This document shows positions 45,629 through 50,352 of a DNA stretch of 53,432 nt, piece after piece. This DNA comes from Bacteroidota bacterium. GTDB lineage: Bacteria > Bacteroidota > Bacteroidia > Chitinophagales > Chitinophagaceae. The notes beneath the pieces are model-generated. The model searched no databases, was not told the origin of the DNA, and saw nothing but the letters and a program-made list of their open reading frames with translations. Location of the stretch: NCBI GenBank assembly GCA_005883765.1, contig VBAQ01000065.1:20962-74393 (forward strand), given 5' to 3'. Made by a program: the position numbers and the translations under genes. The stretch's first letter is position 1, and each line of letters begins with the position of its first letter.

Positions 45629-46378
45629 ATGAGCTTAAACTCTACATTGGGAGTATTGTCATCGATAATTCTGTTTGCACCCGTAATTCTTATCATCGGA
45701 TTCAAATTATTTACCAATAGAAGTTTTTTGGCGCTTTCTTTATATTACTTTGTTTCGGGTGTTTACAATCTTATCTCACAAAACGTGCTAAACGCACCGG
45801 CTACCATTGCCCGTCCTTTAGGAATCATCGTCAATTTATTGGACGCTCCCTTAATGCTGCTGTTCCTTATTTTTTTCGGCACCTCGGTATTGATGAAAAA
45901 AAGGATCACCAGGGCGATATTTATTTTTCTTGTTTTTGAGGTGATCATTATGCTTATTTATGGATTTACTGTAAAGGCTGTCAAGATAATCTTAGGACCC
46001 GATATCGCGATTATCATAGCACTCAGCTTTTTATTTTTTATGCGAAATGTTAAGCTGGCTGTTACAAATCAAAAAAGCTTAGGTAAGGCGATAATGGCTT
46101 CTTCGGTGCTGTTGTCTTATACAATTTTTACTGTTGTCTATATCTTTTATTACCTCGTTAAAACCGGGCAGTACAGGGACGACGCCGAACTTGTTTATTA
46201 TCTCGTCACCATTTTGTCAGTCATTCTAATGTCCATTGGCATTGTGATTGAAAATAAAAGAATAAAAAAATTGGGAGAATTAAAAAACACGCGTAAGGAA
46301 TTAGCCATCATCTACGGAAAAACAAAAGCGGCTGACCTGAATCAAGACAGCCGCTTCCTCAAAACAAATGGCTTTTAA
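45629..46378 (+). CDS. Seven-transmembrane protein, unknown
   Basis: A 249-residue polytopic membrane protein with about seven hydrophobic segments (starting VLSSIILFAPVILIIGFKLF, ending LVTILSVILMSIGIVIE) and a short charged tail ENKRIKKLGELKNTRKELAI. No catalytic motif stands out. Related uncharacterised proteins exist in Chitinophagaceae, but I could not assign a domain family. Its TAA overlaps the stop of the convergent acyl-CoA dehydrogenase gene within a TTTTAAAA palindrome. Confidence 0.75.
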   Translation: MSLNSTLGVLSSIILFAPVILIIGFKLFTNRSFLALSLYYFVSGVYNLISQNVLNAPATIARPLGIIVNLLDAPLMLLFLIFFGTSVLMKKRITRAIFIFLVFEVIIMLIYGFTVKAVKIILGPDIAIIIALSFLFFMRNVKLAVTNQKSLGKAIMASSVLLSYTIFTVVYIFYYLVKTGQYRDDAELVYYLVTILSVILMSIGIVIENKRIKKLGELKNTRKELAIIYGKTKAADLNQDSRFLKTNGF

Positions 46379-48183
46379 AAGCAGTATTTATTTTCTGCGA
46401 TCATTTTATCAGCAAGTCTTCTCCTGGCTTCTTTTGTGTTAAAGGGTTCGGCCTTTGTAAAACGTTTCAGTCCCATTAACATCATCCTTTGTTCATCGCC
46501 ATCAGCGAATGAATTGATCGCGTCCTTTCCATATTTATTTACGCGGTCTGCCGCATCATATAAATAGGTCCGCATGATATCGAAATAGTGCTGGCTGTTA
46601 TCCTCACCTTCTTTATCTGCAATCTTCATTACTCGTAGTAAAACGCTTTCCGCATTGAACGTTTCTATGGCCATATCTGCAATATTCATCAACACTTCCT
46701 GCTCCGTTTGAATTTTCATCATTAATTTTTGTACTGCGGCGCCCGATGTCATGAGTATCGCTTTTTTAAGATTAGCAACCAGCTTTTTTTCTTTTTGAAA
46801 AGGCGTTTCCCCATCAGCGCTAAAATCCGGGATACTCATTAATTCTTTTTGTACTTCAGTCGCCGGCCCCATCAGGTTCAGCCTTCCCTGCATTGCTCTT
46901 TTTAGAGTCATGTCCAGGATCAGCAAGCGATTGATCTCATTTGTTCCCTCATAAATCCGGTTAATGCGACTGTCACGGTAAGCCCTGGAAATCTCATACT
47001 CGGCGCTGAAGCCATTACCACCGTGGATCTGCACGCCTTCATCAACGACAAAATCCAGGACCTCGCTTCCATAAACTTTTAATGCGGCACATTCAATCGC
47101 GTACTCTTCTGCTGCGCCAAGCAATGCCTCATTAAAAGGACTACCTGCCTCCAGCAACTCTTTTTCTTTTTCGTCGATCCAATTGGCAGTACGATATAAT
47201 GCACTCTCGGAAACAAAAACGTTTATTGCCATCTCGGCCAGCTTATGCTTGATAGCACCGAAATTCGAAATCGGTTGTTTGAATTGTTCGCGTGTTACGG
47301 CATACCGAACAGAAGTAGTGACCGCTCTCCTCGAGCCGCCCACAGCTGCTGCACATAGCTTCAAGCGACCAATGTTGAGAATATTAAAGGCTATCTTGTG
47401 ACCTTTTCCAATTTCGCCCAACACATTTTCGACCGGCACCTTGCAATCCTGGAAATATAATTGAACAGTAGACGATCCTTTGATTCCCATTTTGTGTTCC
47501 TCGGGTCCCTGCGTAAAACCCTCTGTTCCTCTTTCAACTATAAATCCTGTGAATTTATCTCCATCCACTTTTGCAAAAACGGTGTACACATCAGCAAAGC
47601 CCCCGTTAGTGATCCAGCATTTTTGCCCATTAAGTAAGTAATATTTACCGTCAGCGCTAAGCTTCGCGCTTGTCTTTGCCCCCAGAGCATCGCTTCCGCT
47701 ATTGGGCTCCGTCAAACCGTACGAACCGACCCATTCACCGTTGATGAGTTTAGGAATGTATTTCCGCTTTTGTTCGGGGGTACCAAAATATAAAATGGGC
47801 AGGGTGCCAATGCCTGTATGTGCTGCAATAGCTACAGAAAATGAGTGTCCGGCACCAAGGTATTCATTTACGATAGTTGACGTAACAAAATCTTTTCCGA
47901 GCCCACCGTATTCTTCCGGAAAAGCAACTGCGAGCAATCCTTGCTCGCCGGCCTTTTGCAGTAAAGATCTCATCAACCCCGGCTCCAAAGCATCAATGCG
48001 GTCCAAAATAGGGATCACCTCCGAATCCAGGAATTGATTGCACATGTCGCGGATCATCAATTGCTCCTCAGAAAAATTTTCCGGGATAAATGTCTCGGAC
48101 GATGAAGAATCTTTTATCAGCCATTCACCACCTTTCATCCCGATAGCTATCGGGACAGTTTTGCTTTTTACGTCGGTGCTCAT
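46375..48183 (-). CDS. Acyl-CoA dehydrogenase (long form) with N-terminal repeat insertion
   Basis: A 602-residue FAD enzyme oxidising acyl-CoA to enoyl-CoA in fatty acid degradation. It has the N-terminal helical domain (EQLMIRDMCNQFLDSEVIP), the FAD-binding centre with YGLTEPNSGSDALGAKTSAK and CWITNGGFADVYTVFAK, then RLKLCAAAVGGSRRAVTTSV and QIHGGNGFSAEYEISRAYRD, with catalytic Glu in IYEGTNEINR. The extra C-terminal 160 residues mark the VLCAD-like long form. Residues 10-15 (VPIAIG) are encoded by the palindrome TCCCGATAGCTATCGGGA, which homologues appear to lack. A MarR regulator lies upstream on the same strand. Confidence 0.93.
   Translation of the reverse strand: MSTDVKSKTVPIAIGMKGGEWLIKDSSSSETFIPENFSEEQLMIRDMCNQFLDSEVIPILDRIDALEPGLMRSLLQKAGEQGLLAVAFPEEYGGLGKDFVTSTIVNEYLGAGHSFSVAIAAHTGIGTLPILYFGTPEQKRKYIPKLINGEWVGSYGLTEPNSGSDALGAKTSAKLSADGKYYLLNGQKCWITNGGFADVYTVFAKVDGDKFTGFIVERGTEGFTQGPEEHKMGIKGSSTVQLYFQDCKVPVENVLGEIGKGHKIAFNILNIGRLKLCAAAVGGSRRAVTTSVRYAVTREQFKQPISNFGAIKHKLAEMAINVFVSESALYRTANWIDEKEKELLEAGSPFNEALLGAAEEYAIECAALKVYGSEVLDFVVDEGVQIHGGNGFSAEYEISRAYRDSRINRIYEGTNEINRLLILDMTLKRAMQGRLNLMGPATEVQKELMSIPDFSADGETPFQKEKKLVANLKKAILMTSGAAVQKLMMKIQTEQEVLMNIADMAIETFNAESVLLRVMKIADKEGEDNSQHYFDIMRTYLYDAADRVNKYGKDAINSFADGDEQRMMLMGLKRFTKAEPFNTKEARRRLADKMIAENKYCF
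48138..48155. repeat. Palindrome TCCCGATAGCTATCGGGA inside the acyl-CoA dehydrogenase
   Basis: A perfect 18-bp palindrome, in frame in codons 9-15 of the acyl-CoA dehydrogenase. The same 16-bp core recurs at 48427-48442, with variant copies at 48396-48413 and 26374-26391. Confidence 0.85.
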
Positions 48184-48261
48184 AACGATATTTTAAAAGT
48201 TTAAGGTTTAAGTTTAAATATTGTGTAACCTGCTTTATTACTTCTATGATCGTCTGTTGCC

Positions 48262-48413
48262 CGCCCGGATGAATCCGTTCGGACGGGCGTCGCTCCGAAG
48301 GAACCCCTTCCGGGCACTCTTGTACGTCCGGTCCCAAAGGGATCCATTTGGATAATTCTTTCCAACATTGATGAGCCCTTGCCATGTAGACTCACTCCCG
48401 AAAGCGATCGGGA
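48262..48413. repeat. Cluster of palindromic repeats between marR and acyl-CoA dehydrogenase
   Basis: Within the 259-bp spacer there are CGCCCG (48262-48267) facing CGGGCG (48284-48289), a GGAT/ATCC inner hairpin, CCGAAGG/CCTTCCGG arms around 48294-48315, and TCCCGAAAGCGATCGGGA at 48396-48413, a two-mismatch copy of the 18-bp family. No gene is seen in the spacer. Confidence 0.6.
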
Positions 48414-48426
48414 TCACCATTCACCA

Positions 48427-48442
48427 CCCGATAGCTATCGGG
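48427..48442. repeat. Palindrome CCCGATAGCTATCGGG touching the marR stop
   Basis: An exact copy of the core of the 18-bp palindrome; it ends at the base before the marR stop codon (48443-48445). It could serve as a hairpin but has no T-tract. Confidence 0.8.
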
Positions 48443-48886
48443 TCACGATTTCAGATTATCATAAACAACCTGCAACACCTGTTTACATACGTCGATTTGC
48501 TCAACTGGCACACCTTTCAATGCTTCGTTCAAGGTCTCTTCAGCCATCATCATCGTTTGTTCTTCCAATTTTTGTCCCTGCTTCGTGAGATAAATAAGAT
48601 TAATTCTCCTGTCATTATCCGAAGCCACACGCTTCACCAGGTTCAATCTTTCAAGATTGTCGACAAGCCTTGTGATACTTGGTTTATCGCGAAAGGTAGC
48701 ATTACAGAGTTCCTGCTGACTTAATCCTTCTTTCTTCCACAAATGATATAACACGCTCCACTGTTCAATCGTCAGATTTATTCCACGAGCATTGATTTTT
48801 TTTTGAAGCCTTCGGGCAATAGCAGTCGAAGCTTTGCCTGTGATAAAGCTGTATAACTCCCCCCTCTTAAATTGGTTGTTTGACAT
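48443..48886 (-). CDS. MarR family transcriptional regulator
   Basis: ATG 48886 gives 147 residues; an in-frame TTG eight codons earlier lies over the operator and is rejected. The winged helix-turn-helix is visible: TIEQWSVLYHLWKKEGLSQQ, ELCNATFRDKPSITRLVDNL and the wing RLNLVKRVASDNDRRINLIY. Helices at both ends would dimerise. A perfect inverted repeat directly before its ATG, next to a full promoter, points to autorepression. The acyl-CoA dehydrogenase gene downstream on the same strand is a candidate second target, so the ligand could be an acyl-CoA or fatty acid; that is inference. Confidence 0.9.
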   Translation of the reverse strand: MSNNQFKRGELYSFITGKASTAIARRLQKKINARGINLTIEQWSVLYHLWKKEGLSQQELCNATFRDKPSITRLVDNLERLNLVKRVASDNDRRINLIYLTKQGQKLEEQTMMMAEETLNEALKGVPVEQIDVCKQVLQVVYDNLKS

Positions 48887-48906
48887 ATAGTTGTTTATAC
48901 AACTAT
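48887..48906. promoter_or_regulatory. Probable MarR operator: ATAGTTGT-TTAT-ACAACTAT
   Basis: A perfect 8+4+8 inverted repeat that abuts the marR ATG and begins one base after its -7 box (minus-strand sense), so bound repressor would cover the transcription start. Size and symmetry fit a MarR dimer. Confidence 0.7.
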
Positions 48907-48907
48907 T

Positions 48908-48937
48908 CAAAGATAAATATTATCTTCAGCTATTCAA
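48908..48937 (-). promoter_or_regulatory. Promoter of marR (TTG-19-TATCTTTG)
   Basis: On the minus strand TTG (48935-48937) and a perfect TATCTTTG (48908-48915) are 19 bases apart, the best promoter match in the window. Confidence 0.65.
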
Positions 48938-48996
48938 ATAAATTGAACAAAAAATGTGAATTGAGAATTTGAAGATCCTGTGAGGTCTTGAAGGCC

Positions 48997-49024
48997 TTGC
49001 GATCAGTTACAATAGCTAGTTTTG
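48997..49024 (+). promoter_or_regulatory. Promoter of the GT2 glycosyltransferase (TTG-17-TAGTTTTG)
   Basis: TTG at 48997-48999 and a perfect TAnnTTTG match TAGTTTTG at 49017-49024 are 17 bases apart; the ATG follows 12 bases later. An in-frame TTG start at 49022 lies inside the -7 box and is therefore rejected. Confidence 0.55.
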
Positions 49025-49036
49025 TTCCCACGCACA

Positions 49037-50149
49037 ATGATCCTGATTGTAATCATACTTCTTTTTCTTGGCTACAGCATTCTTATTTTTTACTATTGGT
49101 TGGGTTGGACATCAGCTCCCGAATTCTTTCCAAAACCAGGAACGTCGGCCACTAACATTTCGATTGTCATTCCTGCGAGAAATGAAGACCAGAACATCGG
49201 CAGCCTTCTGAACGCTTTGCAACAACAAACATATTCCGAACGCCTGGTCGAGGTGATCGTGATAGATGATCATTCGACTGACAATACGGTTAAAATAGTA
49301 AGAGAATTTCCTACGGTCACTTTACTTGAACTAAAGGATGATTCGCTAAATTCCTATAAAAAGAAAGCCATTGAAGAAGCAATTACTGCGGCCACAGGTA
49401 ATTTGATTATTACCACGGATGCAGACTGCATGCCTCCTCCTGGCTGGCTCGAGGCATTGGTATCATTTCAGCATCAGAAGAATTCTGCGTTCATTGCTGC
49501 GCCTGTGGTTTTTCAAAATAACTCTTCCATCCTTGAACTTTTTCAGGCCCTGGATTTTTTAGTGCTGCAAGGGATTACCGGGGCCTCAGTCCATCGTAAA
49601 ATACATTCGATGTGCAACGGAGCCAATCTTGCCTATCAAAAGACAGCGTTTTTTGAAGTCAACGGTTTTGAAAACATCGACACGATTGCTTCAGGCGATG
49701 ACATGCTATTAATGCATAAGATCTGGAAAAGATTTCCAGTCCGGGTGCACTATCTTAAATCAAAGCAAGCGATTGTTACCACTCAGCCAATGAAGACGTG
49801 GAAAGAATTTTTTAACCAGCGAATCCGCTGGGCCAGCAAGACAAGATTTTACGATGATATGCGAATCTTTTGGGTGTTGCTGCTTGTTTATCTTTTCAAT
49901 TTCTCTTTCCTGGTGTTGCTGGTTGCCGGGTTGTGGTTGCATAGGTTGTGGCTATACTTCGTCTTATTGTTGATTGCAAAAACGATTATTGAATTTCCGT
50001 TTGTTTATTCCGTGGCAAAATTTTTTAAGAAGCAATCTTTATTGAAATACTTTTTCTTTTTTCAGCCTCTGCATATTGGCTATACCATCATTGCCGGGTG
50101 GTTGGGGCAATTTGGCAAATATGAATGGAAGGGAAGACGAGTGAAATAG
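49037..50149 (+). CDS. Membrane GT2-family glycosyltransferase
   Basis: A 370-residue processive-type GT2 enzyme with one N-terminal membrane span (residues 2-23) and three to four C-terminal ones (about 275-360). The catalytic domain has [11 protein letters not shown] at 44-54, [11 protein letters not shown] at 73-83, [11 protein letters not shown] with Asp128 and Asp130, ASGDD near 218-222 and QRIRW at 261-265 (the QxxRW motif). The architecture is that of enzymes polymerising or attaching sugars at the inner membrane, such as carotenoid or glycolipid glycosyltransferases and hyaluronan synthase-like proteins. The sugar cannot be told. It may belong with the envelope genes at the right edge. 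Confidence 0.87.
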
Positions 50150-50151
50150 AA

Positions 50152-50352
50152 AAGGGCAACAGGCAATTGGCAACAGGCAATTATTTTTATCGTCGATTGC
50201 CCTTCGCCTTTCGCCCTGTGGCTTTTTCTTATTGCCCATTACTTATTGCCATTGCTCATTGCCCATTGCCCGTTGCTTATTGCCCATTGCCTATTGCCCT
50301 TTGCTTATTGCCCATTGCCCATTGCCCATTGCTTATTGCTCATTGCCCATTG
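50152..50352. repeat. Imperfect heptanucleotide array (ATTGCCC)
   Basis: From about 50229 the sequence is built almost wholly of ATTGCCC units and one-base variants (ATTGCTC, ATTGCCT, TTGCTT). A preceding stretch near 50154-50182 (GGGCAACAGGCAATTGGCAA and on) is its reverse complement, so the block can fold back on itself. It fills the 220-bp spacer between the glycosyltransferase and the ABC permease. Open frames through it are by-products. Confidence 0.9.

Follow-up and report, generated by a model that had tools for sequence, protein, structure and literature searches.

A palindrome between a -7 box and the marR start codon

A gene for a MarR-family regulator (marR) lies on the minus strand ahead of a gene for an acyl-CoA dehydrogenase (fadE), within a window of 53,432 nt, the whole stretch of DNA analysed here, from a Bacteroidota bacterium (Chitinophagaceae; GCA_005883765.1, contig VBAQ01000065.1, positions 20,962-74,393). 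The features of the locus are as follows.

46375..48183, minus strand: fadE, 602-aa acyl-CoA dehydrogenase, presumed second gene of the operon (NCBIfam NF058590 FadE, 833 bits, cut-off 600)
48184..48442, minus strand: marR-fadE spacer, 259 bp, with REP-like palindromes (48397-48412, 48427-48442)
48443..48886, minus strand: marR, 147-aa MarR-family regulator, winged helix (Pfam MarR_2, E 2.2e-14; AlphaFold model)
48887..48906, no strand assigned: predicted MarR operator, perfect palindrome ATAGTTGT-TTAT-ACAACTAT (base-by-base check, conservation)
48888-48905, within the palindrome: core 18-mer TAGTTG-N6-CAACTA
48903, minus strand: predicted +1 of transcription, a base of the palindrome (from the -7 element position in PMC6847099)
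48908..48915, minus strand: -7 promoter element TATCTTTG (Bacteroidota consensus TAnnTTTG; box conserved in relatives)
48935..48938, minus strand: possible -33 element TTTG, 19 nt (48916-48934) before the -7 box

Positions 48887-48906 read ATAGTTGTTTATACAACTAT, with two perfectly matching 8-nt arms around a 4-nt loop. In minus-strand order the promoter region runs TTTG, 19 nt, TATCTTTG, A, ATAGTTGTATAAACAACTAT and ATG: the palindrome directly abuts the marR start codon (48886-48884, minus), and a single base (48907) separates it from the TATCTTTG box at 48915-48908, which fits the TAnnTTTG -7 element of the Bacteroidota primary sigma factor. A base-by-base check bore out the palindrome, -7 box, spacing and ATG abutment given in the preliminary description, with exact coordinates. 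The evidence for a conserved -33 element in relatives was weak, with TTG at that position in 14/60 versus 12% in controls. PMC6847099 places the Flavobacterium -7 element at T-12 to G-5; by analogy, transcription is inferred to start at 48903, giving a predicted marR leader of 17 nt. This length is not odd, because the median leader in F. psychrophilum is 24 bp according to PMC9723704.

The marR product belongs to the MarR family by Pfam profile, scoring 53.8 bits against MarR_2 (cut-off 27) and 51.9 bits against MarR (cut-off 24.6). Its AlphaFold model (pLDDT 84.2) has the MarR fold: the best solved-structure match has Z 16.3 and rmsd 2.1 over 128 residues, and the 50 entries listed span Z 14.7-16.3, with titles nearly all MarR-family. 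The structure comparison singles out no ligand, many MarR chains being tied among the matches listed. Residues R66, D67, K68, S70, T72 and R73, in the region of the recognition helix, are invariant across 24 aligned orthologues.

The dyad is conserved before orthologous marR genes

The palindrome alone is unremarkable, since perfect 8+8 inverted repeats with a 4-nt loop are expected by chance about 0.8 times per window (53,432/4^8). A search for its particular sequence with as many as 3 mismatches finds one place in the window, versus a shuffle mean of 0.22.

Eighty orthologous marR loci were picked by protein similarity only, of which 79 had at least 60 nt of upstream DNA; the 80th (L050), which starts 4 nt before the ATG, was left out. 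The 18-mer at -19 to -2 forms the dyad TAGTT-N8-AACTA against the same ATG in 79/79 loci, with 10/10 arm bases matched in 75, 9 in 3 and 8 in 1. The commonest version in the family is TAGTTGCATAACTAACTA (57/79 loci). The 14 nt preceding the dyad contain a TAnnTTT box in 63/79 loci, versus 1.3% of 7,500 control windows, and the 18-mer begins 2-4 nt past the box in 63/79; DNA farther upstream shows little visible conservation. The orthologues therefore share, without exception, the MarR-family trait of a palindromic operator site in the promoter of the regulator's own gene, and the palindrome is present where the preliminary description had held that an operator should be found, before orthologous marR genes. 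As judged from these comparisons, position and conservation together raise the palindrome above chance.

Codons 3-5 of marR (48872-48880, minus; AAC AAC CAA) show barely any synonymous variation, also in L011-L090, and later codons vary. AAC, AAC and CAA are kept in 79, 80 and 79 of 80 loci, and in 49/49, 48/50 and 40/43 in a second comparison. The sequences AAACAACTA and AAACAACCA recur 15 nt apart, and the constancy perhaps reflects the translation start or an additional half-site.

Control of the divergent glycosyltransferase gene (49022-50149) by the operator is unlikely: the neighbour on that side varies among relatives and the operator is constant. A degenerate tandem heptamer, ATTGCCC (17.6 copies; also period 28), occupies 50231-50352, between the GT2 glycosyltransferase gene and a permease gene.

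marR and fadE form a conserved pair

Whether the operator also controls the downstream acyl-CoA dehydrogenase had been left open in the preliminary description, and the comparison with relatives largely answers this. fadE comes next after marR in 78/80 loci, the other two (L076, L085) ending before fadE, and the gap between the genes in relatives has a median of 36.5 nt (n=78), being below 100 nt in 69/78 and above 200 nt in one (L018, 438 nt). Niastella and Sediminibacterium are among the cultured relatives that have this module. The arrangement makes co-control likely. The 259-bp gap of the window is, by the same comparison, a local expansion, across which co-transcription of marR and fadE is likely from the gene order; a look for terminators in the spacer gave no candidate on the strand of marR (minus).

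The spacer is repeat-rich, as previously described: the REP-like palindrome CCCGATAGCTATCGGG is present there in one exact copy and one copy with two mismatches, and the genome holds 32 exact copies versus none of the reversed pattern. A further copy, at 48139-48154, lies in frame inside the start of fadE (minus). The FadE N-terminus reads MSTDVKSKTV-PIAIGM-KGGEWL here versus MSTETKSKTVLKGGEWL in L011, and the REP-like copy corresponds to the stretch absent from relatives, so that the repeat element is, on the predicted reading frame, translated into the N-terminus of the enzyme.

The pairing was also looked at outside the family. Among 296 Bacteroidota genomes sampled, eight orthologues of at least 60% identity were found, the window's own included, and all adjoin fadE. 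For 12/13 more distant MarR matches in this sample, loci spanning about 3.4 kb gave no match to fadE, etfB, fadN or fadA; in the remaining one, L228, a dehydrogenase of 32% identity is present. Four distant MarR genes of other Bacteroidota that are not beside fadE (L226, L229, L232, L234) are preceded, at a distance of up to about 110 nt, by GTTG...CAAC dyads. The half-site is therefore not exclusive to this regulator, and these dyads suggest that it may be common among Bacteroidota MarR proteins.

Copies of the site mark beta-oxidation promoters

The genome from which the window comes (G000; 4.67 Mb, 97.8% complete) contains the exact core TAGTT-N3-TA-N3-AACTA in just three places: before marR-fadE, before etfBA and before fadN. 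The etfB-etfA site (C183:2842) lies two bases past a TATCTTTG box, and the genes match Pfam ETF and ETF_alpha; the fadN site (C393:6565) precedes a gene for a 3-hydroxyacyl-CoA dehydrogenase (Pfam 3HCDH_N) that is truncated at the contig end. All three sites are at beta-oxidation promoters, as predicted from the genes that follow. The genome's own fadA (C121:5418-6590, locus L325) is without the operator, its best match reaching 8/12 bases, though a TACCTTTG box is present. The regulon is therefore incomplete in this genome, with the site at 3/4 expected beta-oxidation promoters and fadA as the exception. With up to two mismatches allowed, core matches number 202, versus 737 for the reversed control, so that looser matches carry no meaning. 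The preliminary description had proposed a genome search with the 20-mer as the way to the regulon. The exact 20-mer did not lead there, as it occurs once in the genome and, with 3 mismatches or fewer, shows no genome-wide enrichment (32 places versus 73 for the reversed control); the family consensus did.

The site was then surveyed across the family in 98 genomes, using the versions TAGTTGCATAACTAACTA and TAGTTGCATAAACAACTA, each with at most one mismatch, and reversed patterns as controls. The first version gave 53 sites versus 4 and the second 106 versus 7, together 159 sites versus 11. The next gene is marR at 54 sites, etfB at 41, fadN at 31, fadA at 28 and another acyl-CoA dehydrogenase gene at 3, leaving 2 unexplained. 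The 54 marR cases include one, L245, in which the gene encodes another MarR protein, of 39% identity, and fadE is absent. Accordingly, 157/159 sites are at marR(-fadE), etfB, fadN, fadA or another acyl-CoA dehydrogenase gene, and the 98 genomes carry sites at most promoters of the cycle, the pattern expected for a beta-oxidation master regulator of the functional class of FadR or PsrA.

The 53 TAGTTGCATAACTAACTA sites precede marR (20) and fadN (28 in the usual orientation and 2 in the other) or have an acyl-CoA dehydrogenase gene on the other side (2), with one unexplained (L142). For TAGTTGCATAAACAACTA, 90/106 sites were read as loci, namely marR 31, etfB 28, thiolase 28, one fadN, one dehydrogenase 36% identical to FadE, and one unexplained (L249); the remaining 16/106 were assigned by coordinates, before etfB (13) or marR (3) matches. 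The thiolase call rests on one representative identified by profile (TIGR01930, 427 bits, cut-off 240.55; Pfam thiolase), the others being recognized by their common N-terminus. At L249 (G008 C9:76183), a near-consensus site lies 49 nt before the gene for a 104-aa protein with no beta-oxidation link seen, possibly by chance.

These counts bear on whether control is local, the site serving marR and perhaps fadE, with a ligand unrelated to beta-oxidation. MarR proteins usually regulate their own genes through a promoter site, according to PMC5487221, and the single exact 20-mer in the genome would agree with purely local control. However, 103/159 near-identical sites stand before other genes (41 etfB, 31 fadN, 28 fadA and 3 other dehydrogenases), and we regard local control by itself as quite improbable. 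The survey instead supports the view that the site marks a putative beta-oxidation regulon and is not private to marR.

The site co-occurs with the regulator

With an orthologue called at E below 1e-40, the regulator was present in 64/98 genomes. At least one site was found in 61/64 genomes with the orthologue versus 2/34 without it (Fisher p 5e-20; own-promoter site counted). A test restricted to etfB covered 55 genomes with etfB of 60 searched, in which 50 upstream regions were read and one locus (L185) was without upstream DNA. By manual count, the etfB site was present in 30/32 genomes with the orthologue versus 1/17 without; the script threshold also takes a poor match at L211, giving 31 and 1 (p 8e-11). 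At L204 and L211, etfB lacks the site though the genomes have the orthologue.

Two genomes are informative individually. G043 has a good site before etfB (76% identity) and no orthologue was found in its 83% complete assembly, which counts against the link, whereas G006, with an etfB of 77% identity, has neither orthologue nor site, which speaks for it. The co-occurrence is confounded with kinship, because most genomes without the orthologue have a more divergent etfB (about 60-65% identity).

The same comparison addresses whether another MarR protein, or an unrelated regulator of the same genome, binds the sites, leaving the adjacent MarR as a bystander. Candidates exist, since the window's own genome has 10 MarR_2 matches, 8 of them above the cut-off; moreover, G043 combines a site with no detected orthologue, and in G031 the site precedes a different MarR gene (39% identity) and no fadE. 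Nevertheless, site and orthologue go together across the genomes as given above, and the site is in the regulator's own promoter for every orthologue tested; a bystander role for the adjacent MarR is thus very improbable.

Proposed mechanism

Taken together, conservation, the sites at functionally linked promoters and co-occurrence with the regulator uphold the operator reading and its placement over the start site, both put forward in the preliminary description. The palindrome is very probably the operator of the adjacent MarR protein, which would act as an autoregulating repressor of marR-fadE and of other beta-oxidation genes and be released by an acyl-CoA-type ligand. The sequences themselves show the site, its conservation, its position relative to the -7 box, its target genes and its co-occurrence with the regulator; that MarR binds there, that control is negative, which ligand induces and that the two genes of the window share a message across the 259-bp gap are inferences.

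In the proposed mechanism, a MarR dimer on the palindrome would occupy the marR-fadE promoter from about -3 to +17 and stop RNA polymerase from starting, so that MarR would repress its own operon. Through the copies of the site, it would also repress etfBA, fadN and, in many relatives, fadA. Of these genes, etfBA encodes the electron acceptor of the dehydrogenase, fadN a 3-hydroxyacyl-CoA dehydrogenase and fadA a thiolase. During fatty-acid breakdown, the dimer would come off its sites in response to an acyl-CoA or some related intermediate, and the whole set would be switched on, with more repressor produced as well. Acyl-CoA is presumed to be the inducer: the pathway is beta-oxidation, and CoA thioesters are the inducers for CouR and FerC (PMC5487221), which makes acyl-CoA the natural candidate.

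Site placement is consistent with this. At etfB promoters, the site lies 2-7 nt past TAnnTTTG in 22/28, and at fadN promoters mostly 4-9 nt past TAnnTT(T/C) (17/28). A site just past the -7 box, over the start and the first transcribed bases, is a repressor's place. Activation, in which MarR bound downstream of the -7 box would aid transcription, has a precedent in that some MarR proteins act as activators, according to PMC5487221. However, at both marR and etfB the site is past the -7 box and extends over the predicted start, where a dimer should hinder RNA polymerase, and activation therefore has very little probability.

The preliminary description had repression both blocking the start site and shutting the initiation region. 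The predicted overlap with the start site is supported, but a block of translation initiation does not hold as a general mechanism, because tens to hundreds of bases separate the etfB, fadN and fadA sites from the ATG (33-99 nt for etfB, 8-638 nt for fadN) and because shuffled leader sequences fold into RNA hairpins just as stable. These observations also weigh on the reading of the palindrome as a 5'-leader RNA hairpin that controls marR translation. The predicted leader in the window can pair 5 bp just before the ATG, and the near-invariant codons 3-5 point to selection beyond the protein at the start. On the other hand, four leaders compared with shuffles gave z of 0.11, 1.66, -0.06 and -0.06, the commonest version TAGTTGCATAACTAACTA disrupts the inner pairs, the leader is without an Rfam match, and the fadN sites, at such distances, cannot occupy the ribosome site. 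Control by an RNA hairpin is extremely improbable, and the DNA operator remains the preferred reading.

Extended to the pathway, this reading makes the MarR protein the master repressor, in this Bacteroidota family, of the entire beta-oxidation cycle (fadE, etfBA, fadN, fadA), encoded on the message of the first enzyme and sensing acyl-CoA intermediates of the pathway. It would be a catabolic mirror of FabT and would take the place of the GntR- or TetR-type regulators FadR and PsrA. We consider this wider role rather probable.

Relation to known regulators

The described master regulators of fatty acid degradation come from other families: FadR of E. coli is a GntR-family protein, and FadR of Bacillus and Thermus and PsrA are TetR-family proteins, all relieved by long-chain acyl-CoA. 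They differ from the present protein in having unrelated DNA-binding families and operators, whereas here, in Bacteroidota, the same job is apparently done by a MarR protein. That MarR proteins regulate themselves through a palindrome at the start site is textbook knowledge; what is new is the regulon. Searches of the open-licence literature found no description of beta-oxidation under a MarR regulator in Bacteroidota, which is weak evidence of novelty. If true, the proposal identifies the regulator, the operator and the targets for fatty acid breakdown across a large environmental group of Bacteroidota, for which no described regulator was found in the same literature, and it derives from one palindrome a compact, testable regulon, with three promoters in the window's own genome, and a concrete ligand hypothesis.

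YetL of Bacillus subtilis, a MarR-family protein with an 18-bp palindrome of the TAGTTA...TAACTA type, responds to flavonoids and has other targets. Its outer half-sites resemble those of the palindrome described here; a search of open-licence papers for the letters of the YetL palindrome gave no match.

The nearest analogue of the marR-fadE system is FabT, a MarR-family regulator of Lactobacillales. FabT likewise serves acyl-chain metabolism, its gene is the first of the operon that it controls, and the levels of regulator and enzymes are coupled (PMC13046290). FabT differs in controlling fatty acid synthesis and in being strengthened by acyl-ACP (PMC13046290), whereas here the targets belong to beta-oxidation and release by acyl-CoA is presumed. 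Consistent with this distinction, the MarR protein scores 27.9 bits against the NCBIfam FabT model NF050133, below its cut-off of 200, and marR is followed by an acyl-CoA dehydrogenase gene and does not head an operon for fatty acid synthesis. CouR and FerC, MarR-family regulators of hydroxycinnamate catabolism, resemble the present proposal in that they repress catabolic genes and are released when CoA thioesters bind (PMC5487221), and differ from it in the pathway. The MarR model superimposes on CouR (5cyv_B) with Z 14.9 and rmsd 2.1 over 131 residues, a match that many MarR chains equal.
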